A DNA stretch of 61,046 nt, taken from Gracilaria domingensis. Its lineage: Eukaryota > Rhodophyta > Florideophyceae > Gracilariales > Gracilariaceae. How positions within the stretch are numbered: position 1 is the first letter of the stretch; each line of letters begins with the position of its first letter. The DNA is taken from the NCBI GenBank assembly GCA_022539475.1, contig VCMS01000409.1, forward strand, positions 18,432 through 79,477, given 5' to 3'. The notes under the pieces were generated by a model. It was not told where the DNA came from. It saw nothing but the letters and a program-made list of their open reading frames with translations, and made no database searches. Position numbers and translations under genes: made by a program. This document shows, piece after piece, positions 13,073 through 33,124 of the stretch.

Positions 13073-13097
13073 TTAATTATGGCAATCCGATTGAAGC

Positions 13098-14795: not shown

Positions 14796-15689
14796 ATGTA
14801 TAACTCGGAAGTTAGAGCCCAAGAAGTAACTCCTCAGCAGCTGGCTAACGAAATATTCGAAAATGGCTACGCCGTGATTAGTGATGTTGACGGTACTCTG
14901 AAAAGAGCTGGGGAGAACATTCCTGCCGAAACAGTCAAATGCATGAAGTACATCAACGCACGCGTTGGTTTCGGAATTGCTACTGGGCGAGATATAGAGG
15001 ATGCCGAGAGTTTCATGGAGCACCTGGGTGGCTACACTTTTGGCATCTCTGGAAACCAAGGCGCACGGGTGAGATTATCCAATGGTACCGAAATTGATCA
15101 GGACCTTGACAGGGAAGGTTACGAAAGATGTGCAGCCGAACTTGAGAGACTTGCACTCTCCTTAAATGAATCGCACGGACTTCACGAAGAGCGTCAACAA
15201 GCAGTGGTGAGCACTAGAAAAGACAGTGGACTCCCTAACTTCACGTACAATGGACTGTCGAAGTGGAAAACAGAAGTTAACTCCGGTATTTCAAAAGTGT
15301 TGACATCCTTTCCGAACCTGGTTGCGTACCCTCAAGATGAAAACTGTGACATAGGGGACATTCGTTTCACGAAAAATAGTGGGGCGCTAGCCTTGGTTGA
15401 AAACGACCCCCAGTTTGACACACATTTAATCGTTGCTTTCGGGAATGCTTCCAATGATGGCCCTCTATATGAAATGGCAACCCTGGCAGTTCATGTGAAG
15501 GGAGAAGACCATCCAGCAGCGGTAACATATCTTGTTGATGGCGTGGAGGACGTGCATGAGACCATCAGAAGGGTGGCAGAACTGTACGGGTACAGAAAAT
15601 GCAAGTGTCAAGGTTTAGAAATGCTCTTGGAATTTGTTTCAAGTGCTACGATGCCTTTAATACTTAGCTATGATATGAGATCTCAGTAA
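14796..15689 (+). CDS. HAD-superfamily (subclass IIB-like) phosphatase
   Basis: A 297-residue protein starts at the ATG at 14796 (MYNSEVRAQEVTPQQL). HAD motif I is YAVISDVDGTL with both Asp residues present (nucleophile and acid/base). Motif II lies in GFGIATGRD, and motif IV is VAFGNASNDGPL, close to the family GDxxND. The inserted cap between motifs II and IV fits Cof / sugar-phosphate phosphatase-type HAD hydrolases, which dephosphorylate sugar phosphates or similar small molecules in the cytosol. The substrate cannot be named. The gene converges with a paralogue at 15720-16559; the ORFs are 30 bp apart, so the transcripts probably overlap. Confidence 0.75.
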   Translation: MYNSEVRAQEVTPQQLANEIFENGYAVISDVDGTLKRAGENIPAETVKCMKYINARVGFGIATGRDIEDAESFMEHLGGYTFGISGNQGARVRLSNGTEIDQDLDREGYERCAAELERLALSLNESHGLHEERQQAVVSTRKDSGLPNFTYNGLSKWKTEVNSGISKVLTSFPNLVAYPQDENCDIGDIRFTKNSGALALVENDPQFDTHLIVAFGNASNDGPLYEMATLAVHVKGEDHPAAVTYLVDGVEDVHETIRRVAELYGYRKCKCQGLEMLLEFVSSATMPLILSYDMRSQ

Positions 15690-15719
15690 TAAAAGTGTCG
15701 TGTATATCTCAATACCCTT

Positions 15720-16559
15720 TTATGAATCTTGGTGGTTTTTATCGTGCTGCTTTTCCTCGTAGCCGTACAACAGAGCCACCAACATAATTGTCGAATGTAC
15801 ATCCTCCACGCTTTCGAACAGGTTGTGTACTCCACGCGGGATACAATCTTCTTTGACGTGAACGCCGTACACGCCTACCTCATGCAAAGGCCCGTCGCTC
15901 AAAGCACTTCCGAACGTCACGACGTCATCCGTATCAATAAATCTCGGTTCATTATCCACAAGATTTTCTCCTCCGCTTCCTTTTGTGTATCGCTTGTCCA
16001 CAATTTCGCAACTTTTATCGCCGGGATAGATAACAAACGCATCCATCTTCTGCAACAGGTCCCCAATAGCAGAATCCACTTCTTCTTTCCACTGCCACAG
16101 TTTGTTGTACACGAAATTGGGAAGGCCACTATCACTTCTGGTCTCCACGAACCCCTTGTCATCATCATTCACAATACCATGCCTCCTATTCAAATCCCTT
16201 GCCAGGAACAGTAGTCCGTCAACAGTGTGGTCAAGGGTGTGATCATTGAATGCACCCTTAATTTCCCTCTCGTCAGAGAAACGCAGGAAAGCTCCATGAT
16301 TCGCCGAGACACCAAACTTATAGTCTCCGAGTCCTTCCATTTTCCCCTCCACGTCGCCCACATCACCCCCTGTGACAAGTCCGAAACCAACACGTTCGTC
16401 AATGAACTTCATACACTTCACAACTTCTTCTGGAATTGACTCTCCTTCTCTTCTCAACGTTCCATCAACGGAACTTAATATACCGTAACCATTGGCATAT
16501 ATGAACTTAGACAAGGTATTTGGTGAAATTTCCGCCAAGTCTCTCTGTTCCTCTGCCAT
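15720..16559 (-). CDS. HAD-like paralogue lacking the nucleophilic Asp (putative pseudophosphatase)
   Basis: A 279-residue protein is read from MAEEQRDLAEISPNTL (16559); two more upstream start options add 7-29 residues. It aligns end to end with the neighbouring phosphatase: shared VKCMK(F/Y)I, RVGFG, SGLPNF and a common C-terminus with VEDVHxTI. Motif I reads YGILSSVDGTL where the paralogue has YAVISDVDGTL, so the nucleophile is Ser. TGRD has become TGGD and GNASND has become GSALSD. Three catalytic motifs are altered while the frame is intact, which suggests a non-catalytic, perhaps regulatory protein kept under selection, or a recent pseudogene with no stop yet. It arose by inverted duplication. 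Confidence 0.75.
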   Translation of the reverse strand: MAEEQRDLAEISPNTLSKFIYANGYGILSSVDGTLRREGESIPEEVVKCMKFIDERVGFGLVTGGDVGDVEGKMEGLGDYKFGVSANHGAFLRFSDEREIKGAFNDHTLDHTVDGLLFLARDLNRRHGIVNDDDKGFVETRSDSGLPNFVYNKLWQWKEEVDSAIGDLLQKMDAFVIYPGDKSCEIVDKRYTKGSGGENLVDNEPRFIDTDDVVTFGSALSDGPLHEVGVYGVHVKEDCIPRGVHNLFESVEDVHSTIMLVALLYGYEEKQHDKNHQDS

Positions 16560-16892
16560 TTTTCCTGATACAGTCACCATACTGCCACAAGTACCGCATA
16601 GACAGGAACTGTATAGACTTCTCAGTTCAACTTCTCTTAAAAGCAACCTTAAGTGCAGTTTCAGAATGTTAGGACGCTACATGTTCAATTGCGAATTGAC
16701 TGGTGCCACCAATGATGTTAACGATACCGAGCATTTGGCATGTTGCAATTAGACGCAACTGGACCAAAGACGTTTGACATTTGTTCAATTACCAGCCTGC
16801 CGCACCTTTTCTATGTTCATATGTATAGCCTTGTAATAGTATACTACTCTTAATACTCGCAAGACACACATAATTTACTAATCATCTCATTC
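16560..16892. other. Intergenic, nothing recognised
   Basis: It contains the start region of the minus-strand HAD-like gene and the 3' end side of the dioxygenase-like gene. No repeat or RNA gene is visible. Confidence 0.4.
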
Positions 16893-18566
16893 TCATCCAC
16901 TTCGAGGCGCTCGCAGCCTCATTATTGGCAAATCGTCATCACTACTACTCTCGAGCACTTCGGTTCTACCGGCGTCCGCTTCCACACCAATCTCCACGAC
17001 CACTTGGTCTTCGTCCATGTCAACCGCCCCACCCTCCTTATCGGACAACAGTTCATCCTCCGCCTCCTCCTCCTCGTCACCATTGACAAACGTGGGTCGG
17101 AAATCCCGCACCCGATGAACAGCATCAGGTAGTGCGTAGCCCTCTGGTACCATGTACATGTGGTATCTAACCAGCAAATCCATAGACTCGGGCCTATCCA
17201 CCTTGTCCTTCCCACTTGCTCCAGCATGTGTCACATCACCACGGCCCACGAATACAGAGTACGGTGGGATGATTATCTTCTTCGCTGGATACACCTCCGA
17301 CATCACTCGCAACTGTTGGTTGTTCATCCCCACCAGTTGATGGCTTCCAGCGCTCACCCAGAGAGGAAAGCCCTCTTTCCCAGAGGCCATTACAAAGTAT
17401 CCGGGGTTGCCAGTATTCATTGTTTCCTTCGTAACCAGACCACTGAAGTCGGTGTGCAGCGTCTGGCGCTTGCACTTTCTCGTCGTCCCCAGAAATCGAC
17501 CACCAGTTTTCGGAGTGTACATCTTCACAGCTTCCCTTTCATTGTCCCATAGTCCCAAAGCCGCAGCAATTGTACCCATTCGAACATCAAGTAAAGCACG
17601 CGACCTTACAACCCACCTGAGCTCCTCATTATCCTCCGGCTTCTCCACCGTACCCCAACGTGTCGACATCACTCTCCCCTCAAATGGTCCATCGCTACCG
17701 TCCTTCCATCCTTCATCATCGTTGATTATTTGAACAAACGACTTCTGTTCCTCTCCTTTCCGTATATCCGGCATCGCTCCATACTCATTCTCGAAGAAGT
17801 CCACCAACTTCCCCGACACATCTCCGAACTCCCGAACTTCTTCCAACTCCTCCCATTTAGGGACACCATTATCCGTCGCAAAGCCATCAAGCACGCAATA
17901 TCCATTCTGCCTTAGCTCAGCTTGCATTCGGGCGAAGAACATTTGCCCAAATTCGTCATGCTCCTTCGCAGCAACCCACAGCACCTCTTCATCATCCATA
18001 CCTGTCGGTCGAGTACGAGGATACTGCATACCAAATGTCTCCGCCCGTAGGCGATGTTCAGCCCTTGCAGCGTGCCAAAAGACAAGATGGTGTACATCTC
18101 TGAGATTCGAGACACTTAGCAGCTCCGACCTATGTCCCTTCGGCAAGTGAATGACTCTGAGCCAGGGGTCCTTGTGCTCAATTACGTTCTTCCCTTGCCA
18201 TTCCTGCGGTCTCAGCCTGGCATACCCGCACCATGATGGGTTCAGTGGGCCATCATATGGGTCACCTCGAACAAGTCCGTGCTCCTCAGATTCCGGAAGA
18301 GCTGTAGGTAACTCGTCATCAAATGACCCCCCACCTGTCTCTTGCTGATCGTCTGGCGCAGCATCTTTCTCGACGGTGACAACCCGTGGAACTGTCACAG
18401 AAAGAAGCTCTTCGTCATCCACAAATGCAGAACTGCCTGCGTTCTCTGCATTCGCTCCCTCTCCCAATGCCACGAACTGAACCTTCATCGACCTTCCTCT
18501 CAGCACATGTTCATTTAGTTGAGACATCAGGTCATCCGGTGTCATGCTGTTCAGAGTAGATCTCAT
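16893..18566 (-). CDS. 2-oxoglutarate/Fe(II) dioxygenase-like protein
   Basis: A 557-residue ORF from the ATG at 18566. The C-terminal half carries a candidate facial triad on a double-stranded beta helix: His371 and Asp373 in TLHTDFSG, His447 in GDVTHAGASG, and Arg467 in LLVRYHMYM at the position that would bind the 2OG carboxylate. The order HxD...H...R fits 2OG oxygenases. The preceding IIIPPYSVFVGRGD strand is typical of protist 2OG-like proteins. The N-terminal half is acidic and unassigned. Above the ATG the frame is open for about 36 codons (IEVLDSSEEEQRAPPRKKRR) and a GTGAGT sits upstream, so a first coding exon may be missing. The next gene on this strand encodes a ParB-like protein. 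A DNA- or chromatin-directed substrate is inference from context only. Confidence 0.6.
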   Translation of the reverse strand: MRSTLNSMTPDDLMSQLNEHVLRGRSMKVQFVALGEGANAENAGSSAFVDDEELLSVTVPRVVTVEKDAAPDDQQETGGGSFDDELPTALPESEEHGLVRGDPYDGPLNPSWCGYARLRPQEWQGKNVIEHKDPWLRVIHLPKGHRSELLSVSNLRDVHHLVFWHAARAEHRLRAETFGMQYPRTRPTGMDDEEVLWVAAKEHDEFGQMFFARMQAELRQNGYCVLDGFATDNGVPKWEELEEVREFGDVSGKLVDFFENEYGAMPDIRKGEEQKSFVQIINDDEGWKDGSDGPFEGRVMSTRWGTVEKPEDNEELRWVVRSRALLDVRMGTIAAALGLWDNEREAVKMYTPKTGGRFLGTTRKCKRQTLHTDFSGLVTKETMNTGNPGYFVMASGKEGFPLWVSAGSHQLVGMNNQQLRVMSEVYPAKKIIIPPYSVFVGRGDVTHAGASGKDKVDRPESMDLLVRYHMYMVPEGYALPDAVHRVRDFRPTFVNGDEEEEAEDELLSDKEGGAVDMDEDQVVVEIGVEADAGRTEVLESSSDDDLPIMRLRAPRSG

Positions 18567-18783
18567 CTGTTGTGTGAAAGTCTTTCTCCGTTTCTTCCTC
18601 GGCGGAGCCCGCTGTTCTTCTTCAGAGCTATCCAGAACTTCTATGGCACCTCGATTTCGGCCGTGTCAATTTCCCTATAACTCACCTGCGCCCGTTCTCG
18701 TGCACTTCTTCGCGGCTCCCCTTCTTCACTGGCAGATGTTGCAGCAGCAGCAGCGGGAGTCCTCCTCTTCGTCACGGACTGCT

Positions 18784-20808
18784 TCACTGGTGCGGGGGCG
18801 GAATTACCTTGAGCATCGTCCGCAATCGATTCTGAACGGAAGTCGTGGCAGTTCTAATTGAGTTCGTCCTGCTCCGAACACGCGGCAATGTGTTGAAGTT
18901 CACAACTTGTCCCAAAAGGAACTGATACACAGCTGCGTTGTTGTCTGGGTCTTCAACGTCATCTTCATTCGATGGAGCAGAAAGACTGACTTCGCGTTTC
19001 AGGAACACTTCCATGGACTCTTCCTCGTTCAGTTCATTCCTCACTGCTCTAGCCGCGCGGAACAGAGACACTGCTCTATCATAAAAGAAACCTCGAACCT
19101 CCTCAAAGCTTTTCCATTGCTTTGTCTTCGTCGACTTGCCCTTCAATAGAAACATCTGAAGACAATCAAGAATGAAGGAAAACTCCTCGGCATCCAAAAC
19201 ATATAGCGGAGTATGGGACAGATGTGTGAGACCTATGTCACTCACAGTCTCACATATATCCTCGAAATGGGCCAGCATTCCCTCACGAGACATGAGTTGC
19301 AGGGCGACATTGGCATATCTCAGGTACTGACGCTCTTGCACAGTCCCAATCAGTTGGCTCTCCTTCAACACTTCTGTCACTTCTGCAGGATCCACGTCTG
19401 CCGGCGTCACCCCCTCAACATCTTCAATTAGAATGGCGACCACACTAACTATAGAGTGTATCTTGTCTGCAAACATCATCCTTCGCATGGTACTCGTCGA
19501 CTCATTGAGGTACGAAGCAACACATAACAATTCCTTCATCCCAATGGGCCTCCCATCTCTTCGTATCAGCAGATTGCAACGCCAAAACTTGGCTAATCGC
19601 TTCCACTTCGGTGCACCAGTCGCTGCCAAATATTGTATAGCTTTCAGACGATGCAAACCATCTACAATGAAGCACTTCTTCGTTAGGCGTCCCTTGTCAG
19701 TATCCCTCTCTCCCGTAGTAGCATCTTGTAAGGCCACCACTGGAGAACCCATCGACTGCAATATCCCCCGCTCCTCCATACTCTTCACAAGGGCTTCAAC
19801 GTGGCGTTTACTTACTCCACGGAGTAAATTGGGCGGAGTGTCCACCAGAGTGATGTCAACAGTAACAACAACCATCCGGTACTGATTGAGGTTCACCTTT
19901 GGTACCTTCTGACGAATTCGTCTGTACGTCTTGCTCCGAGTAGGTGTCCCTTGTGTTCCAGACCGCTCGCCAGAAACACTTGAACGTGCCATTCTTGCGG
20001 ACAGAAGCACAACGTCATCGTCCTGCTGCTCCGCAGTTTCTGGTGCAGTTTGGGGTACAGATGGACCAGCTCCTTGCGCGGATTGCGCATCCGCGTCTGG
20101 AAGGGGACCTTTCATGATCTCATCTTCCTCCTCTTGCACAGCCGTCCCCTGCTGAACCGTCTGTTTCGACGCAGAAGTTCCCCTTGTGTCGACGGTCTGA
20201 TTCATCGCAGGAGAAGCCCTTTTCGACGCAGTGGGCTTCGTAGCGGAGGTAGACTTTGTTTGACCTGTCCGCTTCGTAGCTGGGGATGCTCTCGTCTCCA
20301 TAGACCGCTTCGTAATAGACGACGGACCTGCCCGCGGAGGTGCTACTGATGCGCTACCTCTCGGTGTTGATGAACTTCGAATTGGCTCCGTGCGGCTTGT
20401 CGGCGTCATCACCTCACTCATAGCGCTCACCGTTCCTCGCTTCGACGCCGGAATGCTGGCTGCCACCGGTTCCATCATTTTCTCATCCCAAGGAGCGGCC
20501 GTCCGGAGATCCTGGATATATTGTGGAAGATCCAGGCCCTCCGCCCGGTAAGGGTAGAACGTCTGACCGCTTCGACTGATGAGAATATTATGAACCACCA
20601 CAAGACCTGGGTCCAATTGCTTCCCGTGCAACTCGCGGCGTAGAACACTTCCAATTCCATGCAACAACGCTTCCCCGACTATCACCTTTCCTTCATCCTC
20701 AATATCCATCTGCAGAGAAACCCGCATTCCACCTTGCAATAATCGAGTGCTCCGCCGAGTGCGAGGAGTCACGCTTTGCGTACGCTTTCGAACACGAGTT
20801 GGCTTCAT
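18784..20808 (-). CDS. ParB/sulfiredoxin-fold domain protein
   Basis: A 674-residue ORF with an Arg-rich start (MKPTRVRKRTQSVTPRTRR). Residues of about 120-220 are a Ser/Thr/Lys linker with degenerate repeats (SATKPTASKRASPAM, MNQTVDTRGTSASK). The domain at about residues 315-400 has LLRGVSKRHVEALVKSMEE, then SPVVALQD, and the signature FIVDGLHRLKAIQYLA (His386), which is the ParB-type GxHR motif. Bacterial ParB uses this fold for CTP and DNA-partition functions. In phages and mobile DNA the domain is often encoded with DNA methyltransferases. The C-terminal part is helical and unassigned. It lies 217 bp upstream of the dioxygenase-like gene on the same strand, and its promoter side faces the foldback repeat. 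Confidence 0.7.
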   Translation of the reverse strand: MKPTRVRKRTQSVTPRTRRSTRLLQGGMRVSLQMDIEDEGKVIVGEALLHGIGSVLRRELHGKQLDPGLVVVHNILISRSGQTFYPYRAEGLDLPQYIQDLRTAAPWDEKMMEPVAASIPASKRGTVSAMSEVMTPTSRTEPIRSSSTPRGSASVAPPRAGPSSITKRSMETRASPATKRTGQTKSTSATKPTASKRASPAMNQTVDTRGTSASKQTVQQGTAVQEEEDEIMKGPLPDADAQSAQGAGPSVPQTAPETAEQQDDDVVLLSARMARSSVSGERSGTQGTPTRSKTYRRIRQKVPKVNLNQYRMVVVTVDITLVDTPPNLLRGVSKRHVEALVKSMEERGILQSMGSPVVALQDATTGERDTDKGRLTKKCFIVDGLHRLKAIQYLAATGAPKWKRLAKFWRCNLLIRRDGRPIGMKELLCVASYLNESTSTMRRMMFADKIHSIVSVVAILIEDVEGVTPADVDPAEVTEVLKESQLIGTVQERQYLRYANVALQLMSREGMLAHFEDICETVSDIGLTHLSHTPLYVLDAEEFSFILDCLQMFLLKGKSTKTKQWKSFEEVRGFFYDRAVSLFRAARAVRNELNEEESMEVFLKREVSLSAPSNEDDVEDPDNNAAVYQFLLGQVVNFNTLPRVRSRTNSIRTATTSVQNRLRTMLKVIPPPHQ

Positions 20809-21163
20809 GTTGAACAGCTATTGCAGTGAAAGGTGTATATCAACAATACGCTCGCTCTGGACGATACAACAACGGAGGCGAGCCTTTAAAAGGCGACTTA
20901 CGCTGGGCACCCCCGCTTTCGGCAGCTCCTCCCAGCGCACTGCCAGTCTCGTCCGTGTCCTGTCCGTGGCCGCTCGCACGCTGATTGTACGCTTTAGAGT
21001 CGTGGAGTTCGCGCAATGATGACTCACGCGAGCAATGGTCGCGTTCTCTAATCATGCTCTTCAAATGCTTTGCATAGTAGTCAAGAGTACACTCATTCAC
21101 TTCCATGTACAGCCTACTCCCGCCAATACACGTGGACAGCGGCGCCAACGTACCGGCGGCCGG
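20809..21163. other. Upstream region of the ParB-like gene
   Basis: It holds the presumed ParB promoter. A minus-strand frame starting near 21109 (MEVNECTLDYYAKHLK) is open for about 90 codons but has no family match and changes to low complexity; it is not annotated as a gene. Confidence 0.35.
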
Positions 21164-21224
21164 GTGTAGCGAAATCACTGCGCGGCGGCGTGTTTTGGGA
21201 GGTCCCGGGAAGGCACCGGAATGT

Positions 21225-21317
21225 TGCGATTTTATGCCCGCGGGCGGGGGGGGTCGGTCGTGTTAGGGTAGGTACCCTAACACGACCGACCCCCCCGCCC
21301 GCGGGCATAAAATCGCA
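21225..21317. repeat. Palindrome 1, arms of about 43 bp
   Basis: The arms run from tgcgattttatgcccgcggg inward to ttaggg and back through ccctaa. The loop reads taggta on the plus strand. The G and C runs differ by one base (8 versus 7). Each arm is a potential G-quadruplex former. Confidence 0.9.
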
Positions 21318-21340
21318 CATTTTTCAAAAAATCGCCCAAA

Positions 21341-21418
21341 ACGTGCCCGCGGGCGGGGGGGGTCGGTCGTTTAGGGTAGGTACCCTAACACGACCGACCC
21401 CCCCGCCCGCGGGCACGT
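21341..21418. repeat. Palindrome 2, arms of about 36 bp
   Basis: The core is the same as palindrome 1, with acgtgcccgcggg ends. One arm has lost a base (cgtttaggg against cgtgttaggg). The loop is taggta, the same orientation as palindrome 1. Confidence 0.9.
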
Positions 21419-21701
21419 TCTGGCCACATTCTGGCACCCTCCGGAGACCTCCCAGAACACTCCTCCCGGCACTTCCTGTACCCACTGCGTCACCTTAGTG
21501 CACCATCCCGTCATCTTCACCCTCCAGACACTCCCTAATTTCCGGGATGGTGCACTGAGGTGACCATCCCGTCTTCTCTACCCTCCAGACACTCCCTAAT
21601 TTCCGGGATGGTTCACTGAGGTGACGCAGTGGGTACAAGAAGTGCCGGGAGGAGTGTTTTGGGAGGTCTCCGGAGGGTGCCAAAAAATCGTCGAAAACGT
21701 T

Positions 21702-21770
21702 CCCGCGGGCGGGGGGGTCCGGTCGTGTTAGGGTACCTACCCTAACACGACCGGACCCCCCGCCCGCGGG
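21702..21770. repeat. Palindrome 3, arms of about 32 bp, loop inverted
   Basis: Same family as palindromes 1 and 2 but with tccgg in place of tcgg and with the loop reading tacctac. This is the reverse complement of the other two loops, as if the palindrome centre had flipped. Confidence 0.9.
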
Positions 21771-22003
21771 CACGTTCTGGTCACATTCCGGCGCCTTCCG
21801 GAGACCTCCCAAAACACTCCTCCCGGCACTTCCGGCAGTGATTTCGCTGCACACGCCATACACATATATCAAACTAGAGAAAACTAGCGCTTCACACCCA
21901 CTTGATCCGCGACTTTTAGCACAATACGGGACCGTTGCAATAGCTCCGAATACTCGCGCGACGTGGCCGACACGCGACGCGCTATCGCTACCTCCGACAC
22001 GCG

Positions 22004-22592
22004 NNNNNNNNNNNNNNNNNNNNNNNNNNNNNNNNNNNNNNNNNNNNNNNNNNNNNNNNNNNNNNNNNNNNNNNNNNNNNNNNNNNNNNNNNNNNNNNNN
22101 NNNNNNNNNNNNNNNNNNNNNNNNNNNNNNNNNNNNNNNNNNNNNNNNNNNNNNNNNNNNNNNNNNNNNNNNNNNNNNNNNNNNNNNNNNNNNNNNNNNN
22201 NNNNNNNNNNNNNNNNNNNNNNNNNNNNNNNNNNNNNNNNNNNNNNNNNNNNNNNNNNNNNNNNNNNNNNNNNNNNNNNNNNNNNNNNNNNNNNNNNNNN
22301 NNNNNNNNNNNNNNNNNNNNNNNNNNNNNNNNNNNNNNNNNNNNNNNNNNNNNNNNNNNNNNNNNNNNNNNNNNNNNNNNNNNNNNNNNNNNNNNNNNNN
22401 NNNNNNNNNNNNNNNNNNNNNNNNNNNNNNNNNNNNNNNNNNNNNNNNNNNNNNNNNNNNNNNNNNNNNNNNNNNNNNNNNNNNNNNNNNNNNNNNNNNN
22501 NNNNNNNNNNNNNNNNNNNNNNNNNNNNNNNNNNNNNNNNNNNNNNNNNNNNNNNNNNNNNNNNNNNNNNNNNNNNNNNNNNNNNNNNNNNN
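22004..22592. other. Assembly gap (589 N)
   Basis: A run of unknown bases follows directly on the foldback element. Reading frames that appear to cross it are artefacts. The 5' part of the plus-strand gene block may lie inside. Confidence 1.
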
Positions 22593-22680
22593 AGCAGTTC
22601 TGAAGAAGACAGTGTTCATCCCACAAACAGCTGTGAATCGATTTGAGGTCGTTATATACTTATCATACGTCGGTCACATA

Positions 22681-23148
22681 ATGGGAGAGAACGACAGCAT
22701 CCGAAGGATGAAGAAGAAACAACCGAAAAAGAAACGAAAAGTGAACCATGCACCATCTGTGTACATACCCACTTTTATGTCGTTCTTCAAAGACAACTGC
22801 GATCGACTGGGATTCGCTATCAGTGAGGTCGTATGGGCATGGAGTTGTTTTGCGGCTCATCTTGGAGACATGAACGTTCAGCACATGGTGAAACCATACA
22901 TTTACATGAATATGCAGACGTTGAAGTATACAGCGCTAGAGACACGGGAGTCTGGTTATGCCACGCCGACGAGCCAGAGTACTCGATTCAACACACAGGA
23001 TGTGCCACAGAGCAGTACTAGTGGATCGGTGGAGACCTTGAGTGATGAATGCGATACAAACCTCCGAATACTGGCTAAGGAGTTTTTGACAGACCTCGAA
23101 ACCATATGCACCCACGATAGCCTCTGTAGCTTACGGCTGATCAGATGA
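22681..23148 (+). CDS. HMG-box-like protein with a classical nuclear localisation signal (5' end uncertain)
   Basis: A 155-residue frame is read from the ATG at 22681; the frame is also open back into the gap, so the true start may be upstream. Residues 10-21 are strongly basic and include PKKKRKV, identical to the classic monopartite nuclear localisation signal. The following segment (about residues 23-88) has an HMG-box pattern: aromatic/hydrophobic FMSFFKDN, a central Trp-rich helix (EVVWAWSCF), then KPYIYMN and a Tyr. This is divergent, so the HMG call is tentative. The tail is Ser/Thr-rich. It ends at a TGA overlapping the ATG of a further open frame (23145-23402), which leads towards the methyltransferase-SET frame, so it could be the N-terminal domain of that same protein. 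Confidence 0.5.
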   Translation: MGENDSIRRMKKKQPKKKRKVNHAPSVYIPTFMSFFKDNCDRLGFAISEVVWAWSCFAAHLGDMNVQHMVKPYIYMNMQTLKYTALETRESGYATPTSQSTRFNTQDVPQSSTSGSVETLSDECDTNLRILAKEFLTDLETICTHDSLCSLRLIR

Positions 23149-23398
23149 GGAAGTGGATAGAGTTTTCGGAGATACGGATGGATACCGTATCTGGTTCTGA
23201 CTCCGGTGAGTTGCCTGCTCGATTTCAGAAGTTTTCGGAGTTGCTATGGAAACCGATACAGGATATGCGTCATGCGGCAGGGTTCCATGTCGGCATTCAC
23301 GCAAAACCTGATATTGAACTGACGAAAACCCCTAAAACTTCCGGTAATGCCGAACCTTCTTCGACCAAGTCTGCCCCACCCCACCTCGTCGAGAGTAT

Positions 23399-25275
23399 AT
23401 GAACCTCGTGAGCTCCGATAGCGACGAGTTCGAGAAGCCGGTGAATCTTGCGGAGCATGAATCTCGGGTTGCCGGTTAGGACATCCAAAAGACTGGTATT
23501 GAGCCGTCCATGAAGGGGATATCCAGTCTCCTTCGAATGAATATGGACAAGGTGTGGAAGGGGATGAGAAAGTCACACTTTGTAGCGTACAACTGTGACA
23601 TGAAGGACCTGAGGCACACACACGAAACGTTTGTGAATCAGAGTGAGATTTTATGGGGTGAGGCACAGCTTGTCCTAACAGACCCTCCCTTTAACACTCG
23701 AAGGAAGAGGAACAAACGGAATAGTGGTCACGATGTCTTCAGTGAGGACGACATGATCCGTACGGCTGACTTAATAAGTTCCGCGCTTCGGTCAGGTGGG
23801 CACTTCATTATATCCTGTGCCATAGCACAGTTTCATGTTTGGCACAGGATACTTTCGGTAACGGGAGTACGAAAGATGAAGCTGGAAACGAAGGTAAACC
23901 AGAACTCATGCCTTCGTTTAAAGTGGATGGGAATCCACTGGTGTTCATCCGGGATCGAAGTAATGTTGGAGGGAATTTGGATACAGCCCGTAACAGAGTA
24001 CGCCGTTCATGGGGTGAAGCGTGGATTGCGACCATCGGAGGAAGCCAGTCTTACTCCATTTGAGGAGAACAATTTCATTCCTTCCACTTTCCCGGCTAAC
24101 AGGAATGTAATTGACCGGGTGCCCAAACCGAGGGCGGGGGAGTGGTTGACATGGAAGGTACATGAGCCAGGTAGTTCAGTACCAAGTGGGCAGTACATAA
24201 GACCGGAGCAGAAGTCCAGGGAGTTGATGATACAGTTGATATGTCGCTTCACCAAACCGGGTGATCTTGTCATGGACATGTTCGCGGGAACTTTTTCTAC
24301 GGGTATGGCATGCCTATCGCTGACAAAGCAGAAGAAGTTCTTGGGGTGCGAGAAGAGTAGGCCATGTTTCAGCCATGCGAAGCACCATCTAACGACTCTT
24401 ATGGCCGAAGTTATTCGCGGGGGGAAGAATGACATCCTGGTTGAACAGGAGGTGGTGGATGCTGCTTCAACGACTTATGAACGGGTTCTACATCGGGACC
24501 GAGGTCGGCTTGAATGGGACGCTCCATTTGGATACCCCCAGTACCAAGTGATGGCTGCACATATTACTCAGTTTCTAGGAAGATACTGGAAGGACTGGGA
24601 CTTTGTCGACAAGTGTGGACAGCATACTGTAGATCTTTTGGAGGAGAAGTACCGAGGAGCTCTGAATCTAAGGGATAGGCATATGCTGTTGACTTTTGAA
24701 GCCAATCGCTATCGCTTACATGTAGCATCTTCTAAGATTCGACATCCCCGTGCTGGTATGGGGGTGTTCACGAACATAAGATATTGGCTGGGGAAACTAT
24801 CTGTCATTTTTATGGAACTTTGGTATACACGGATCTGACGAACCGGAAGGAAAGACACTTAACGTATGGAAGTGGCTGTCTCGGAGCAACTCCAGTGCGG
24901 TACAAGTTGTTTTCTATGATCGTCACTGTGACTGGTACGGAGTTTCTGCACCTGAGGAACAGACCAGGACAGGCTCAGGATAGAAAGGAGAGCGAAGTGT
25001 ACATTGTCCCGGCGCCTTTTTGTATCGGGGGCTACATTAACGACGCCGGATATCATGCCGGGGATCCCGATTTATCGGCGCCCCGGTCAAACAGGATTCG
25101 AAGTGCCAATGTGCAGATGGTGGAAGCGAAGTCCGTGATACAGTTTAAGTCCGACCTTTCTAACTATGCTCTACTTCGTTGTAGAGCAGTAAGAGATATT
25201 TAGAGGGGCGAAGAGTTGTATCTCAACTACGGAGAGCAGTACGCCTGGGACTGGGCTCTGACATTGGAGCAATAG
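23399..25275 (+). pseudogene. Prokaryote-type DNA N6A/N4C methyltransferase fused to a SET domain (damaged)
   Basis: The frame starts near MNLVSSDSDEFEKP. It meets a TAG at 23477-23479, then runs open from 23480 through the longest Met-started part at 23510 to 24838. Methyltransferase motif IV is LVLTDPPFN (Asp at residue 58 counted from 23510). AdoMet motif I follows as DLVMDMFAGTFSTG (about residue 258), with FLGCEKS after it. The IV-before-I order is the beta class of N6-adenine/N4-cytosine DNA methyltransferases (Pfam N6_N4_Mtase), typical of bacteria and phages. Without a break the frame passes into SSKIRHPRAGMGVFTNIRY, a SET-domain start. A -1 base change near 24782 shifts to AGETICHFYGTLVYTDL, then GGYINDAG, RSANVQMV, a TAG at 25201-25203, and RGEELYLNYGEQYAWD, the SET C-terminal GEEL-NYG motif. 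SET enzymes methylate lysines, usually on histones. Confidence 0.75.
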
Positions 25276-25533
25276 ATGAGTTCAGTACCGAATAGAAAAT
25301 AAATATGCTTGTGAATGTTGCAGCTGCCTGGAATACGCGTTGTTGTACATGTACACTGGAGCTCTTCATCTGTAACGGCTATATTTGCGACCCATTGGGC
25401 ACCTCAAATTCCTAAAAAGCAGGAACTGCGGAGTCTCCCGGAATATCTGAACCATGCACCCCCCCCATTCCCCCCCCCCCACCCCCTCCCCCCCTCAACA
25501 ATTTCGTTTCATTACCACGTTTATCTCCACAAC

Positions 25534-27609
25534 ATGGATATAACGCCGAGAAAGCCAAATAGTACGCAGCGGAACAAGAGTGGACAGAAGAAGAGAAGAG
25601 CATCGGATGATACGAATCAGGCTACAAGCACCGCACTTCCTAAACGGAAGTCGTCCTCGACGAAGGAGAGAGTCAGTGGGCGTCCTTCTACAGTACCCTC
25701 TCGCCCATCTCGCAGCGGAGCGTCTTCCGGGATTGCGTCAAGAGTTCATGGATCAGCGAACGATGTCGTGCCGTCAACTGCCAATAATGCAAATCTTGCA
25801 TCTGTCTCTGCTCCTCAAGAACATGAGGTAACTCGGCCCAACGGGTCAGGACAGGAGGGCATGACAACTGGAACTGAAGAAATTCGTATGACACCAAAAC
25901 CTTCATGTCCCCGGCCGATATCGAAGACCGGAGCTACTGGGGCGCGGGTTACGCCGCCCAGTGGATCTGGACAACAAGGGACAATGACGAGAAGTCGTGA
26001 GACCCCTAGTATATTAAGATCGTCACGTCCATCCCTCTCTTCTAGAACTGGGGCCGCTATGAATCGTATCATGCCTCGCAATGGGTCCGGACAAGGGAGA
26101 AAGACAATAAGAAATCGAGAGACAACTGATAGACGAGTTAATCCTCGACCTTCCCCTCTTTCCAGAACGGGGGCCGTTGCAGCTCGTACGAGGCCCAATT
26201 CATCTGATATACGATGCCATGGAGGAGGACAGACACGGGATCTGGAGCTCGGAGCCGTGCCAAGGGTGGACACAGAACGCCTGCAGCCTCTCGTGTCCAA
26301 GGGTATGGCACATGAGGATAGTTCCGATACCGAAATAACACCGAATCCTGCGGCATTACCGGGGCCTGTCGCCGAAGAGGCTAGGGAAATACCGGAAGAT
26401 ATCCATACTGGTGTGAATTCAACCTCTATGAACAGACGTGATCTTTTAAATGAACTGAATTGCTTGAAAGAAAAGGTTAAGACGCTACAAGAGGACTTGA
26501 TGGTTCGGGGAATTCTAGTGAAGGTCGCCCAAGAGCAGAGTACGGCTTTGAAAAAGAGGCTTGAAGAGAAGGATCTAGTCATTGAAGGGCTAAGAGGGGC
26601 ACTGAAACAGGAGGGAGATAGGAGTACACGTGCTGGTGAACCTGGGCAGACAGGTCGAAAGAAGCATAAAATTGAGGTGTGCAACAAGTTTCGAGGGGTT
26701 GCTCGAGCAGTGTATCACAACATGCTGACGTGGGCAAGGAGAGAAACAAGTGAGCTATGGCTCGAAGGTGAGTCTCTCACCCGAAATTGGGGTAACCGTG
26801 CCGAGAAGGTGGAAGACGCAACTGAGAGTGGGGAAGGGCTTATTGAGCCGGAGGAAGGTGGTTCATACATGGTTCCTAAAAACCCCGTGGAGCTCTTGGG
26901 CAGTTTTGGCATGTTCACACCGTCGGTAGAGGGCGGGCCAGATGCTTTGCTAAAGAAAATGTTCGAAAGCGAGTTGAAGGAGTTGAGCTGGGAAAGTATT
27001 AGAAAAGCATTTCTTACCGACAGGTGTATACTGGAACTTTGTGCAGATATGTGCCTTAGGCAGAGAATGCGGCAGACCATGAGTGACGTCGTGGGTGTTC
27101 GGAAGAGAAATACGAGGGATAAACTATTTCTGCTCCTGGGGTACGATCTGATTTGGAGAAGAACAGAGCTGGTAGAAGAGAATGCTGACGAACTCACAAT
27201 GCAGTTGAAGGAAGCGCAGGAGAACATACTGCGTCTTGACGAAAATGGTGTACCAAACACTTCATGGTGGAGAAAAGCCCCATTTGTTCGTCTAAAGTAC
27301 TCCAATGCGGACAATGTCGAGGATATGCCGACGGAAGATCAAGACTTGTCCTTCCGAAACCGTGTCGGGGTACAAGTACTGAAGGAGTTTATTGGGTATG
27401 ATGTGGAAGACAAGGATACGGGCACCTTTTTAGAAGGCACAATACTGTTGCTCGCACGTTTGGACGCTTGGGTGTTGACGGTTGTGAGCCTTCTAAGTAC
27501 GGATGTGTCAAGGGGTGGCCAGAGACAGAAACTGTTTACAAAGAAGTTTGCCGAACTGCTACCTCTGTGTTTAAAGAATGTTCTGGGGGATGTTAGGAAC
27601 GTGTCTTGA
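25534..27609 (+). CDS. Large coiled-coil protein with internal repeats, unknown function
   Basis: 691 residues from the ATG at 25534; the upstream frame back to 25315 crosses C-tracts and looks non-coding. The N-terminal 100 residues are basic and Ser-rich (GQKKRRASDDT). Residues of about 100-222 hold three imperfect repeats of about 40 residues built on GSGQ...RET...SRTGA. Residues of about 299-359 form a heptad-rich coiled coil (LLNELNCLKEKVKTLQEDL, then LKKRLEEKDLVIEGLRGAL). The C-terminal 320 residues look globular and helical (AVYHNMLTWARRETSELWL, TFLEGTILLLARLDAWVL) but match no family I know. It follows the methyltransferase-SET gene on the same strand by about 260 bp, so it may belong to the same block. 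The stop TGA overlaps the next frame by four bases. Confidence 0.6.
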   Translation: MDITPRKPNSTQRNKSGQKKRRASDDTNQATSTALPKRKSSSTKERVSGRPSTVPSRPSRSGASSGIASRVHGSANDVVPSTANNANLASVSAPQEHEVTRPNGSGQEGMTTGTEEIRMTPKPSCPRPISKTGATGARVTPPSGSGQQGTMTRSRETPSILRSSRPSLSSRTGAAMNRIMPRNGSGQGRKTIRNRETTDRRVNPRPSPLSRTGAVAARTRPNSSDIRCHGGGQTRDLELGAVPRVDTERLQPLVSKGMAHEDSSDTEITPNPAALPGPVAEEAREIPEDIHTGVNSTSMNRRDLLNELNCLKEKVKTLQEDLMVRGILVKVAQEQSTALKKRLEEKDLVIEGLRGALKQEGDRSTRAGEPGQTGRKKHKIEVCNKFRGVARAVYHNMLTWARRETSELWLEGESLTRNWGNRAEKVEDATESGEGLIEPEEGGSYMVPKNPVELLGSFGMFTPSVEGGPDALLKKMFESELKELSWESIRKAFLTDRCILELCADMCLRQRMRQTMSDVVGVRKRNTRDKLFLLLGYDLIWRRTELVEENADELTMQLKEAQENILRLDENGVPNTSWWRKAPFVRLKYSNADNVEDMPTEDQDLSFRNRVGVQVLKEFIGYDVEDKDTGTFLEGTILLLARLDAWVLTVVSLLSTDVSRGGQRQKLFTKKFAELLPLCLKNVLGDVRNVS

Positions 27610-27929
27610 GGACCAATTCCAGCGAGTTTCATAATTTTGGAACGACAACGAAAGATTGGACTAAGGTTCTTGGTAATGACATGAGAGAGGCTACATTTGG
27701 ATATCAAATGCCGTCGAACGGAAGACTTTACCTCACTGTGAAAGAACAATTTTTTATTGACAGTGTGAGCCGAAGATTGGGGTCTATTAGCGATTGCTTC
27801 GTTGGTGAATGCGAGGAAGGGGATATGGAGTTCAAGAAAATGGACATGAACGATTTCGTAAGTAGCACAGGATCACAAGAAAAGGCACGACAAGGTGAAC
27901 ATGTAGAGGATGGAGCCCTTAATGTTTAA
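27606..27929 (+). CDS. Small downstream ORF, possibly a shifted 3' end of the preceding gene
   Basis: 107 codons overlap the previous stop (tcTTGAgg) in the -1 frame. The first ATG in it is near 27680 (MREATFGYQMPSNGRLYLT). It looks protein-like (EQFFIDSVSRRLGSI, then an acidic tail) but has no recognised domain. The overlap suggests that a frameshift, sequencing indel or short intron joins it to the coiled-coil protein. A separate gene is less likely. Confidence 0.35.
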   Translation: MRTNSSEFHNFGTTTKDWTKVLGNDMREATFGYQMPSNGRLYLTVKEQFFIDSVSRRLGSISDCFVGECEEGDMEFKKMDMNDFVSSTGSQEKARQGEHVEDGALNV

Positions 27930-28012
27930 GGCTGTACAAGATCAACGTGCTCAATTGGTCCTTCATCTGAATCATGATAGAATCGATTGATGTAGAATCG
28001 GTGGTGAAACCA

Positions 28013-31000
28013 TTAAAGTGGAGGACAAAAAGGTGGGGCAGGGTAGTTTGATCGAACAACATGGACAGTTCCCTGTAGTGCAGAAGCCGGAACCATCCCG
28101 TACCAAGGAGTTAACTCTACGATAGTCTCCGCTTTGGAATGACGAGGGAACGGAAGAGTGTTGTTCTTTTCATCGTTTGTAGCCCACCGTAAAGATATGA
28201 ATTTCAATATGTGGTCCATGTTTGTTGCGGGGGGTAAAACCTCGAAATACCGGACGAATGCCACCTCTGGTGCGGTAAGTGCAGAATCAAGGAGAGATAT
28301 TCGAGTCAGAGCGACTACCTGGGCAACCCAAGTCTCTGAATCTTCTCCGCTTACCAATACAGTGGAAAGCCTTGGCTTTCTACTGGGACCAAATGCTGGA
28401 GAAGCAAAAACACGTTGGATGATGGGGTATTTGGGTCGTCCCAGCTTAAGTGCCTTAGAAGACGAATCGAAGTGTTCAAGAGTCGGAACGAAACCGCCTT
28501 TCACGAGGGCCGAATTCACCAGAGTTATCCTCGTCTTTTCTGGGAAGTATGTAATATAGTGCTCATCCAGTGTTTCTTTCACGAGACTGAGGAAAGGAGG
28601 AAGGGCCCGTTCACCAATTTGGTCAAGAATTGACCTTGTATCCGTACTTGAGAACATCTCTCTAACAGCAGTCCATGCTTTTGAACTGGACATACTTGAA
28701 ACACAATGTTGAAGAGCTCGTAAAGTGAAAGAACGCCCTCTCATTGCAAACCGAGGAAGCTGTGTGGAAGTTCCTGGTAAACCTGGATTACGCTGGTAAG
28801 GAGTATTGCCATTCCATTGCTTTCTAACATGTCCGTGCTCAATGGAGCGAATAGTCTCCTCCACAGCCGTTGCTGTTCTTCTGGACGTCTTTTTGTAGTG
28901 TCTTTTAAATAGCAGGTGTGCATGTTCGTATATGCCTGCGTCGTAATACTTGATACTTCCCAGACGGCGAATATCGTCCACGAGATGATCGAGAAGATGA
29001 AACTTCAGAGTTCCCAGTCTGGAGGGATGAAAATCCGCCAGAGTCTTTGTTGCGGAACGCTTGAAGGCTTCAATCTCCGAACTAAGACACAGGAGAGAGC
29101 TTTCAGTCCAATACGGGTCACGATTGTATCTGAATAAGGTCGAAAGCAAGTCCGAGTATTGAGAGAAAACGGTTGTGATTGGGGCAACGTCCTGTTCTCC
29201 ACAGCAAAGGTCAAAGAATGCTCCTATGAAGGGGAAGACCATGTCAAGTGCTTTGTAGTTTTTGGCCTCCAGCATTCCACGGAGACCGTCTTTCGTGAAG
29301 ATACCATTCAAAGATTTGCCTTTGTCCTGCGTGGAGAAATCGATATGTAAACCTTTGGCAGGAGAATCGCGTTCTATGGCAGCTAGAATTGCGTTTGCAT
29401 GGTTGAAGAGTTGGGTGCGTATCGTTCGAAATGAACGCGATGCAGATGTTCCTATTGTGGTGCACAGGGTGTCTGACTGCAGTCTCTCGATTGTGGCCGT
29501 TTTTATCAACTTTGAGATGCCGAGATGCAAGTTCTGTAATGGTTCGAATGAGAACAGACTGTATGGAGACAATCCCGGGATCATTCCAAGGCTTACGGAA
29601 GTTTCGAGGAACGAAGGAATGAGAGATATGGAATTTGAACGCATCAGAGTATCCGCTTGAGATCTCCTCTCCCTCGCACGACGTGGACGTCTTTCCGCCT
29701 CGTCTTTTTGTGCATGTTGCAAGATAGCTGTGTATGTCTTTCGGATGCTTTTCGTGTGCTTTTGAGAACGTCCGTTGAATGAGGTGGGAATAGAACTGCA
29801 TAAAGATGAGCGAGGGGCTTTGCATCTATGACACAGGCTTTCCGTTTTGGTCCCATGAAGAATGGACAGAATATTCTTAGCCTCAGGAATATCCGCACAA
29901 TAACTCGGAAGCAGAGGATGGCACACTCGACTTAGTTTGTCTTCGCCGATGAACTGAACACCTTTCTGCGTGAGATTTAGAATGGGCTCCAGGACTTGAC
30001 GAAGAGATTTTTGAAGGATTTGCATCTTGGACTCGCGTAGAGACTTGCTAGAAACGAATTGCATTGCGCCTGCTTCAGATGCGGAAACCTCGATCAGTGT
30101 GGTAGGGAAGTATGCCACTACTGTGAGGTCATCACGGATGCACTTACGGCGTAGCTCGTCGGAGAAGTTGAGAAATATGAGGTGAAGAGCCCACAGAGTT
30201 GAATTGATGTCCGGATGGTATCCTCCAGATAACTCATATTAGAATTACGAAACCTGAAGATGTCCATTTGATATCCTTTAGATGTCCATATGACATACGT
30301 AAATGATGCTCAGATGATGCATGAAGTATATCCAAATGATATCCGCCTGATACGCATATGATGTACGAGGAGATGTCCATTGGATTTCGTGATGTTCAAA
30401 TGATGCACCATGGATTTCCGGACATCCATTGGACATATCTTCGTGCATCATATGAATATCTTTGGAATAGTTTTTGTACTTCCGTAGTACATGCAGAGCG
30501 CATCCATTAGGCGCATCCAACGAGGTACCACGGCATATCATTCGGATATCCTGGATGCGCAGAAGATATCCAACTGATATCCTATAGATGTCCCAATTTT
30601 TCATCCGATGGACATCCATTGCGCATCACTTTATCTCACTGGGGAGGATAGGCGGTAACCGATGTTTGCTTTAGAGTTGTTGAAGACTTATCGGTGTATA
30701 ACTGCAGAAGACCTACGAAAGATTCACTGTAACTTATTTCTTGAGAGTAGCACACTATTCTACTATCCAAAGAGCCCATGACCATTTTCTTAAGTTTTGA
30801 GGTGGCGTCTCTTGCGAGAGAGCCGGACATGGGGTGAGATATTTTCGTGGAGTGGATCTGAGGTATAGGGTGGAAGAATGTGTTTTCGTTGTTAGCCAAC
30901 TGGAGCTGTTTCACAAGTGTCTGAACGGGGTCTCTCTTGTAGAGGGTGGCGCTGAACTTACATCCTTCTGGCGAGACAGTTCTGCGATTGAAACCGTCCT

Positions 31001-31562
31001 TTGAGGCGTATCGTTCGAAAATGGCGTTCTTCAGTTCTGTACAGCGCTTGGAACTTGTTATGGTCTCGTTGAATCGCTTTTGCGAGAATCGCGGGTCCCG
31101 AAGTAGCCCAATTAGCTCGTCCGCCTCACGATGACCAAGGTTGGAAGCTACTGAAGCCAGAAAAACCGTGAGATAATCCATATGCAAATCACCGAAAGCC
31201 TCCTCAGAAGGCACTGAGCGAGAACTGCTTCCGTGTTCTCGCTCTAATGACGCGGGACCCGGGGAAGGAGAAACACAATGCGAAGTGTCCAGAATTGGAG
31301 GGGCGCACGGAGTGGGGTCGACGATGTCCTCGGACACCGGAGGCTCGGGAAGGCGACAAGAGGCAGTGACCGTTTCGGAAGGCGCGGGCGCGGGCGCGGA
31401 AAGCTTGAGACGCTTGATTCTCCGAATGGGCCGCCTATTGTCGTCTTCCAGCGCCACTTTCAGACGAAACGGGCAATGGTTGACATGCTGTTGAAGAGAT
31501 AAGACTCCTCGGCGAGTAACGAAGGGGCACCCACGCTTCTTATGTGTACAGTAGTAGACCAT
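28013..31562 (-). pseudogene. Plavaka-type transposase, split by a repeat insertion
   Basis: The N-terminal part (31562-30636) starts at MVYYCTHKKRGCPF with a Cys/His zinc-finger-like motif (CTHKKRGCPF...HVNHC). It continues through FSATLYKRDPVQTLVKQL and ends at LLQLYTDKSSTTLKQTSVTAYPP, which carries the first Asp of the Plavaka DDE core. The protein resumes at about 30225 with YHPDINSTLWALHLIFLNF and runs to 28013, including LLPSYCADIPEAKNIL, SLCHRCKAP and GSIKYYDAGIYEHAHLLFK, all in the Plavaka order. About 400 bp of repeats separates the halves. GTGAGA at the left junction resembles a splice donor, but the acceptors I tested do not restore the frame, so an insertion is favoured. The family is known from fungal and other eukaryotic cut-and-paste elements. 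Confidence 0.75.
30240..30630. repeat. Short-motif repeat block interrupting the transposase
   Basis: About 390 bp is built from variants of atgtccatatgatatcc and its inverse ggatat(c)caaatggacat, interspersed with gatgatgc-type units. Copies occur in both orientations, so much of the block can fold on itself. Terminal parts such as gatgtccat near 30259 and atggacatc near 30611 are inverted. It is likely a MITE-like or minisatellite insertion. Confidence 0.6.
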
Positions 31563-31899
31563 GGGAAGAAGAAATGAACGAGAAACGACGACAAAGACTG
31601 CAAGGGAAGGGCGTCCGAAGGGAGAAGGAGGTCGAGCGACAGTCAATATCTACGTCATGCTCAGAACGGAGAATATATTTTGAGTTTAAATCACGTGCTT
31701 TCGTTCAAAAAGGAACGTAGGTACACGTCGACCTCAACACAAGGGTGTACTTCTCGTATTATCTACCACTAGTTATAAACCGGTGGTTTCGCAACGTTGT
31801 ACGCTGTACACCTGTCCAATCTCGCACAGAAAAATAAATCTCTTCCCTCCGCCGCCGCTGCCGCGCCTCCGGCGTCCGACCTACCGTTACCGTCGTGAC
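31563..31899. other. Upstream region of the Plavaka-type transposase
   Basis: No gene is supported. It probably contains the promoter and right end of the transposon. No clear terminal repeat was recognised. Confidence 0.35.
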
Positions 31900-31964
31900 C
31901 CGTGCCATCCACCTCCTCGCGTTCTACTTCGACCGAGTAGAACGCGAGGATGTGGATGGCACGG
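31900..31964. repeat. Perfect-type hairpin, 29-bp arms, 7-nt loop
   Basis: ccgtgccatccacctcctcg... (31900-31928) pairs with its inverse at 31936-31964 with a single mismatch, leaving tcgaccg as the loop. It lies in non-coding DNA between the Plavaka element and the tandem-repeat array. It could be a fold-back transposon remnant or the precursor of a small RNA. Confidence 0.8.
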
Positions 31965-32241
31965 ATCACAAACGGCGCTTCGTCGTACCTTTCTCCGACC
32001 TCGCACTTGCTACGAAGTACAGGGCGGGGAAGAGAATGAGGTACGCTTCATGTCCGCCTAATGGACGCCTCCATAAAGCGGACATCATCCGTATCTCACG
32101 GATGTATTCCGTGCAGTCTTTTCGTACGTGCTTCCATATCCTTCTACGTATCTTTGTCCTACAATAACCAATCCTCACCACGTCTCTTCGCGCTCTGCGA
32201 CATGTAAACGGCAGGAAATAAGCTATGGGTTACTTTTGCGA

Positions 32242-33118
32242 GTAACTAGGTCCCTCGAATTTTCTAGCGGGACGTTTCTGTTTTCCTTTATCAATGGTAC
32301 GTTCCATCGTATTTCAAATGTATCCAACGGAGCATTGACGAACTTATGGATATTTTCTGCTTACGTATACAGGTAAATGACTTTTGATGCGGACGTTGCT
32401 CACGAGTTGCAGGTGCAGGATGTTAGGGGAAACTGCGGTATGTTTGCTGCATGGGCATTCTTGGTGTCGTTGCTTGTGAGTTCTCGCTTCGAGACCATTC
32501 GCGTTTTACGATGATGGTGGGCTGGTACTCTAACCGATCCCTTTCCTTCTTCTTCTTCCTTTTGCGAGTTACTAGGTCCCTCGAATTTTCTAGCGCAACG
32601 TTTCTGTTTTGCTTTATCAATTGTACGTCCCATCGCATTTCAAATATATCCAACGGATCATTGACTAACTTATGGATACTTTCTGCTTGCGTATACAGGT
32701 AAACGACCAATTTCATTTCGTCTCTCAAGATCGATGTCTGACTGTTCGGGATAGGCGGTTCTGGTGCTTGGTTGGGACATAGGCTGCTCTCGTTAATCTC
32801 ATCTTGCGGTATGTTTGCTGCATGGGCATTCTTGGTGTCGTTACTTGTGAGTTCTCGCTTCGACACCTTTCGCGCTTTACGATGATGGTGGGCTGGTAAT
32901 CTAACCGATCCCTTTCCTGCTTCTTCTTCCTTTTGCGAGTTGCTAGGTCCCTCGAATTTTCCAGCGCGACGTTTCTGTTTTGTTTTATCAATGGTACGTT
33001 CCATCGCATTTCAAATATATCCAACGGATCATTGACTAACTTATGGATACTTTCTGCTTGCGTATACAGGTAAATGACTTTTGATGCGGACGTAGCTCAC
33101 GAGTTGCAGGTGCAGGTT
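32242..33118. repeat. Tandem array with period of about 321-371 bp, three copies
   Basis: Three copies of actaggtccctcgaatttt ... cgtatacaggtaaa begin near 32246, 32569 and 32941. Copies 2 and 3 are each preceded by a further shared segment, tgcggtatgtttgctgcatg ... cctttccttcttcttc (from about 32435 and 32806). Copies 1 and 3 end with the same tgacttttgatgcggacgt...gttgcaggtgcagg. Minus-strand frames across the copies alternate (RTIDKTKQKR..., LDIFEMRW...), so a fossil coding exon was probably amplified. Copies differ at a few percent of positions. Confidence 0.75.
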
Positions 33119-33124
33119 TCTCAA

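Follow-up and report, generated by a model that had tools for sequence, protein, structure and literature searches.

A DNA transposon that we file as Plavaka-type, abundant in the genome of the red alga Gracilaria domingensis, carries a gene in which a beta-class DNA amino-methyltransferase and a SET domain share one open reading frame. We propose, at a probability of roughly 0.6, that the encoded protein is a dual writer, setting amino-methyl groups on DNA and methyl groups on lysine, with which the element would mark its own DNA and chromatin. The gene had been described in an earlier note on the window (the whole stretch of 61,046 nucleotides analysed here), which treated it without mobile context. 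It proved to be one copy of a high-copy transposon, and the larger finding is this home of the fusion, an abundant mobile element.

An intact fusion of methyltransferase and SET domains

One frame of the window holds TDPPFN (23678-23695), RPEQK (24200-24214), DMFAGTFSTG (24275-24304) and AGMGVFTNI (24752-24778), and another holds HFYGTLVYTD (24805-24834), GGYIND (25027-25044) and GEELYLNYG (25207-25233). The motifs that the earlier note had named sit at the positions it gave, and the two frames agree with the shift it had claimed after AGMGVFTNI. The open reading frame at 23510-24838 matches the Pfam profile N6_N4_Mtase (E 1.1e-13; 52.2 bits against a cut-off of 26.7), and the three window fragments across the SET stretch gave no Pfam match when each was searched alone. 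The profile check suggested for both domains was thus positive for the methyltransferase in the window itself and for SET in the intact copy L009.

Mapped from the intact 1055-amino-acid frame of this copy (L009:1954-5118, contig C171), the window gene runs from 22098 to 25275 on the forward strand, with an approximate start inside a run of Ns. The fusion gene therefore lies at the site that had been noted, and it is longer than had been stated, its 5' part falling in the N run at 22004-22592. This run comprises 589 Ns, and the matching anchors that flank it are separated by 603 bases in the window, against 580 in L009. The N6_N4_Mtase domain occupies 23666..24367 (forward strand) with frame-shifting deletions inside, and the SET domain occupies 24755..25233 (forward strand), with the frame shifted near 24771 and a stop at 25201; the limits of both were mapped from L009. 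Over 2680 aligned positions the two copies are 96.6% identical. The window gene is a decayed copy: it differs from L009 by two stop codons in register and by six deletions whose lengths are not divisible by three, one of which borders the N run and a further two of which jointly restore the frame. The single frame shift reported earlier is present, and the damage goes well beyond it.

Searching the 77.9 Mb G. domingensis assembly, we found the uninterrupted 1055-amino-acid frame at nine places on nine contigs (C171, C164, C597, C419, C47, C465, C237, C257 and C328). Eight of these places are also among the SET matches listed and the ninth, on C328, is among the methyltransferase matches listed; six of the nine frames were translated and contain zero internal stops. 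In L009, a single frame matches N6_N4_Mtase at residues 516-753 (E 7.9e-15, over the Pfam cut-off) and SET at residues 883-1042 (E 1.5e-7; 32.2 bits against a cut-off of 22.4). The fusion in one open frame is real. The central claim of the earlier note, that one chain combines a beta-class amino-methyltransferase with a SET domain, is accordingly borne out by the intact copies, and also by the divergent families represented by L036 and L012 and by the protein P0001, described below. Both profiles were matched, and no intact homologues encoding the two domains as separate genes turned up. Genome-wide, there are at least 150 SET matches (150 of 311 candidates scored), all over the cut-off and including some long SET genes of ordinary appearance among those listed, at least 150 N6_N4_Mtase matches (150 of 328 candidates scored) and at least 123 Plavaka matches (123 of 672 candidates scored).

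A transposon around the fusion gene

The fusion gene lies within a 22,949-bp element copy (10751..33699), whose ends were taken from copy comparison: positions 10751 and 33699 are constant across nine loci and the window, and copies elsewhere begin or stop matching there. Probes of 400 bp from the ends each found at least 40 places in the genome at 98-100% identity. The element is bounded by terminal inverted repeats, CGTCTGTGTTCTGCAAAGTGGA on the left (10751..10772, forward strand) and CGTCTGTCTCTTGCAGATGCTA on the right (33678..33699, reverse strand), and by a 2-bp target-site duplication, AT, at 10749..10750 and 33700..33701. A pattern covering the terminal motifs of both ends has 980 matches in the genome, and its reversed control has 0. 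Among 21 end pairs (20 facing pairs from among the motif matches listed, plus the window), 15 show a 2-bp target duplication, where about 1.3 would be expected by chance; these pairs are no independent test of the termini, because the search pattern itself starts CGTCTGT. The six pairs lacking a duplication include both other pairs of about 22.9 kb. Paired ends span 9.2 to 22.9 kb, and internal deletions are therefore probable in many copies.

The transposase is encoded on the reverse strand at 28013..31646 in two open reading frames (28013-30118 and 30636-31646), split apart by additional DNA, at about 30190-30643, which is absent from the copies used for comparison. The first matches the Pfam Plavaka profile (E 4.7e-10; 39.6 bits against a cut-off of 26.3), as does the transposase frame of another copy, L013 (E 3e-18; 66.6 bits against the same 26.3). 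The second gave no Plavaka match alone and was assigned to the transposase through copy comparison; a search of solved structures with the transposase returned no useful match. Plavaka transposases carry two motifs, C(2)C and H(3-4)H, between the second D and the last E; a possible C(2)C, CHRC, is visible in the translated transposase. The termini from copy comparison, CGTCTGT..ACAGACG, are neither those of PlavakaA (TGT..ACA) nor those of PlavakaB (CATCA..TGATG), and by its transposase domain, its inverted repeats and a duplication within the 2-3 bp of Plavaka (CMC/CMCT) transposons we file the element as Plavaka-type, outside both described subgroups. A further element gene at 25315..27609 on the forward strand would encode 764 amino acids (832 from stop to stop in L009) and has no Pfam match.

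The methyltransferase and transposase genes recur together. At least 33 of the 150 methyltransferase matches listed have a Plavaka match 0-12 kb downstream, and at least six of the 150 have one within 12 kb upstream. Among those 33 pairs, 32 are convergent (one Plavaka match serves two of them), with at least 14 pairs at 5.32-5.36 kb and at least seven at 5.52-5.54 kb. The remaining 117 listed methyltransferase matches have no downstream Plavaka partner among the matches listed, and the pairing is undercounted because both counts are lower bounds. We rejected the reading of the fusion as a host gene, because it is enclosed by the ends common to the element copies and has the transposase gene as its partner.

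Neighbouring genes and the algal host

Opposite to the fusion gene lies a broken divergent gene (17608..20808, reverse strand) with a ParB-like stretch, VDGLHRLKAIQ, at 19633-19665. In the C171 copy it reads 1087 amino acids, the last 16 or so codons lying beyond the shared stretch, so that its C-terminus is uncertain. The ParB-like similarity is weak, with a best E of 0.0008 from phmmer in a set of five sequences and a probability of 3.6% from hhalign, and the gene has no Pfam match; its motif and this similarity suggest, tentatively, a ParB assignment. The ParB-like DGLHR gene was also considered at L009 and L019.

Two opposed open reading frames for HAD-like hydrolases, at 14718..15689 on the forward strand (PF08282, E 3.3e-13) and 15720..16646 on the reverse strand (PF08282, E 5.6e-5), are possible captured cargo. 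The stretch that holds them, 14718-16646, is common to the C257 and C296 copies. The window also contains retroelement frames with reverse transcriptase, RNase H and integrase at 54379-58578, where a chromodomain scored just below threshold (24.5 against 25.1 bits), and transposase genes of the Transposase_21 (tnp2), DDE_1 and DDE_Tnp_4 types at 5309-8467, 41020-42615 and 44189-45436. The DDE_Tnp_4 frame at 44189-45436, which we take to be Harbinger-like, is outside the Plavaka-type element.

The C5-methyltransferase profile PF00145 had no match in the algal genome, where exons or missing assembly could hide one, and matched in 10 of 14 control genomes. PF05869 likewise had no match in the alga and matched in one of the 14 controls; the search with PF05063, which matched none of the control genomes, is uninterpretable for this genome. 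The mitochondrial COX1 of the host needs TGA to be read as Trp, a point in which oomycetes differ; an oomycete host, considered at first, was rejected on this ground.

Related proteins and descent

A comparison of the L009 protein with 5.77 billion proteins gave 6847 candidates, of which two were relatives at E 0.001. P0001 (ENA, 1015 amino acids) is 40% identical over 96% and has both domains over the cut-off (SET, 26.7 bits against 22.4). P0002 (1186 amino acids) is 28% identical over 58%, with the methyltransferase over the cut-off and SET at 18.1 bits, below 22.4. A profile search with 7999 candidates scored listed P0001, the fragment P0004 and P0005-P0009; it missed P0002 despite the presence of P0002 in the query alignment, so absences there prove little. 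P0004 is the G. domingensis protein FGB62_6g416, which maps to C6 as two overlapping pieces (95% and 87% identity), each containing one stop, and whose best places by E-value are C29 and C292. P0005-P0007 (881-918 amino acids) have the methyltransferase and no SET match at E 0.1.

A second family in the algal genome is represented by L036 (C12), with both domains in one frame (SET, 30.0 bits against 22.4) and 5.5 kb from another Plavaka; in L037, a second copy of this family, the frame is lost inside SET. By these profile matches, the fusion occurs beside two Plavaka families. In a third family, L012 (C382) also has both domains in one frame (SET, 30.4 bits against 22.4), and none of the 123 Plavaka matches listed in the genome lies on C382. 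The L012 locus (C382:7000-16900) and two more places on C382 carry methyltransferase-SET frames of 1169-1170 amino acids.

Outside eukaryotes, matches were confined to one side of the protein. All 12 loci in viral contigs and all 52 in prokaryote genomes match only within query residues 447-750, the methyltransferase side, and a SET-only scan of viral sequences confirmed none of 22 pattern matches. There is therefore no support for the fusion as a whole having come from a virus or a bacterium; for the methyltransferase alone, bacterial or phage ancestry is probable. Four of five viral methyltransferase frames scanned also match ParB_N, three of them over its cut-off. A DGxHR stretch lies near the N-terminus of P0002 and P0005-P0008, and in P0002 and P0005-P0007 the motif is seen to precede the methyltransferase. 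The viral and prokaryote matches on the methyltransferase side, the ParB_N fusions in viral contigs and the DGxHR stretch in relatives tentatively suggest descent from a bacterial or phage ParB-methyltransferase that acquired SET later, in eukaryotes, and whose ParB part is a separate gene in the alga.

Constraint and catalytic motifs

The methyltransferase motifs, which go by the names IV, X, I and II, follow one another in that order, the order of the beta class. By profile, the solved structures closest to it are those of the adenine methyltransferases DpnA and CcrM, and 6mA is therefore the favoured product over 4mC. L012 has EPPY where DPPY is expected. All six aligned SET sequences keep the GxGVF and GT motifs, two Asn, a Glu and the final Tyr. 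SET domains usually carry the NH of an NHxC motif; five of the six have ND in its place, with NH in L012 only. Weak matches of the SET domain in the PDB are to EZH2, SETD8 and MLL-type enzymes.

Constraint was assessed in six intact 1055-amino-acid copies, and the p-values are rough because these copies are related and not independent. The whole frame has 64 synonymous and 107 non-synonymous changes (non-synonymous to synonymous ratio 0.51, p 2.1e-5). By region, the ratio is 0.62 for the N-terminal region (p 0.04), 0.41 for the methyltransferase (p 0.0005), 0.57 for the linker (p 0.2) and 0.46 for SET (p 0.10; seven synonymous and 10 non-synonymous changes), which is not significant alone. Between L009 and L018, the ratio is 0.30 for the methyltransferase (p 0.00015) and 0.61 for SET (p 0.21). 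By this measure, the reading frame as a whole is under constraint. Between families A and B (B being that of L036 and L037), synonymous sites are near-saturated (pS 0.71 in the methyltransferase and 0.75 in SET) with amino acid identities of 45% and 44%, respectively; the fused frame has therefore been kept over long times.

A putative dual writer and its alternatives

The intact gene encodes a single protein, in which some 460 residues of N-terminal region are followed by the beta-class amino-methyltransferase and, after a conserved linker, by SET at the C-terminus. This protein would be brought to element DNA, possibly together with the divergently encoded ParB-like protein; there the methyltransferase would write 6mA (or 4mC), and the SET domain would methylate a lysine on histones close by or on some other chromatin protein. 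Histone methylation by SET and a coupling of DNA and histone marks are both putative. The marks would set the element's own chromatin state, and by analogy the most likely direction of effect is anti-silencing, keeping the element expressed and mobile against host silencing. A fuller version, in which the single-chain dual writer gives a selfish element its own two-layer epigenetic code in a host with no detectable C5-methyltransferase, is put forward tentatively, at somewhat less than even odds.

The same protein could act in the opposite direction, silencing or limiting the element's own copies as a form of self-restraint or copy-number control, like rotifer 4mC. In bdelloids, 4mC at transposons is written by a bacterial N6_N4_Mtase that carries a chromodomain, and a silencing partnership with SETDB1 enzymes has been suggested (PMC8885841). 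The alga, with no C5-methyltransferase match, resembles the rotifers described there. Yet the algal gene is inside the element and spreads with it, the element family is very abundant, and fungal transposon-borne TET/JBP genes are read as aiding escape from silencing (PMC12730594); we consider self-restraint unlikely.

Dam methylation times and licenses transposition of Tn10/IS10, and some SET enzymes have non-histone substrates. By comparison, the algal methyltransferase might mark the element ends to time or license transposition, with SET methylating the transposase or another element protein. The convergent arrangement of methyltransferase and transposase genes at a near-fixed distance would suit such a role, as would the ParB-like stretch that precedes the methyltransferase in P0002 and P0005-P0007 and the fusion of ParB_N to methyltransferases in three viral-contig frames over the cut-off; the SET fold, however, points to chromatin first, and we hold licensing to be improbable. 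We give similarly low odds to a SET half that has ceased to be an enzyme and acts as a scaffold binding SAM or peptide, leaving the DNA methyltransferase to work alone. The replacement of NH by ND in five of six aligned sequences, the sub-threshold SET of P0002 and the lack of significant SET-only constraint, both among young copies and between L009 and L018, are consistent with a scaffold, but the final Tyr, GxG, Glu and Asn are invariant in all six across near-saturating divergence, and L012 keeps NH. That the fusion is an assembly artefact or a read-through of two adjacent genes, as a window copy broken between and within both domains might suggest, has next to no probability and is already refuted at the DNA level by nine contigs that each carry the uninterrupted frame, by the identical architecture of P0001, which comes from another source, and by conserved positions in the linker.

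Comparison with known systems

Transposons that carry chromatin or DNA-modifying enzymes have precedents. Retrotransposons with C5-methyltransferases are known. Plavaka and other elements with accessory TET/JBP genes have been published (Kojima 2025, PMC12730594), and the fungal Plavaka elements described there share with the algal element a Plavaka transposase, terminal inverted repeats, 2-bp duplications and an accessory epigenetic enzyme. They differ in the enzyme, a dioxygenase there and a DNA amino-methyltransferase fused to SET here, and in setting, a fungus there and a red alga here with termini CGTCTGT..ACAGACG. HarbingerS and MuDR transposons of Phytophthora encode SET (Kojima and Jurka 2014, cited in PMC12730594) and so are likewise DNA transposons with a SET domain, but they belong to other transposase superfamilies, and the citing sentence names a SET gene and no DNA methyltransferase (PMC12730594). 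No Harbinger transposase was found beside the SET domain of the algal element, whose transposase is Plavaka.

Very large Plavaka-associated repeats are also described in Amoebidium, and their genes had database matches in red algae, among others (PMC11244446). Size and the Plavaka association are common to these repeats and the algal element, whereas many of the Amoebidium genes are described as tyrosine recombinases (PMC11244446); the main text of that paper contains none of the terms 'SET domain', 'N6_N4', 'adenine' and 'histone methyl' (PMC11244446).

The earlier note had named the bdelloid N4CMT as the nearest analogue, an apt comparison in that both proteins fuse a bacterial-type permuted N6_N4_Mtase to a eukaryotic chromatin domain (PMC8885841). 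The analogy stops at the domain itself, which is a chromodomain (a reader) in bdelloids and SET (a writer) in the alga, and at ownership, N4CMT being a captured host gene and the algal fusion a transposon gene (PMC8885841). The L009 frame gave no Chromo match at E 0.1. Viral ParB-methyltransferase proteins (L044-L046) are alike in joining N6_N4_Mtase with a ParB partner; they have no SET match, whereas the ParB-like part in the alga is a separate divergent gene.

Iyer and colleagues reportedly surveyed eukaryotic adenine methyltransferases and could mention related proteins. Our search of titles and the starts of abstracts, with most subscription literature outside its scope, returned no fusion of an amino-methyltransferase to SET. 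Transposon-borne SET and TET genes are already known, and the algal protein, as a dual writer on DNA and protein, has no precedent among the literature searched.

The usual link between DNA marks and histone marks is made by reader domains, which form a bridge from one writer to another. If the proposed reading is true, the two writers would sit in a single chain, as directly linked as they could be, and the chain would belong to a transposon and not to its host. An active protein would add a strong example to the mobile elements known to carry chromatin enzymes and would make the disputed role of eukaryotic amino-methylation testable in a simple case. It would also provide a genetic source of 6mA or 4mC in a red seaweed with no detected C5-methyltransferase.
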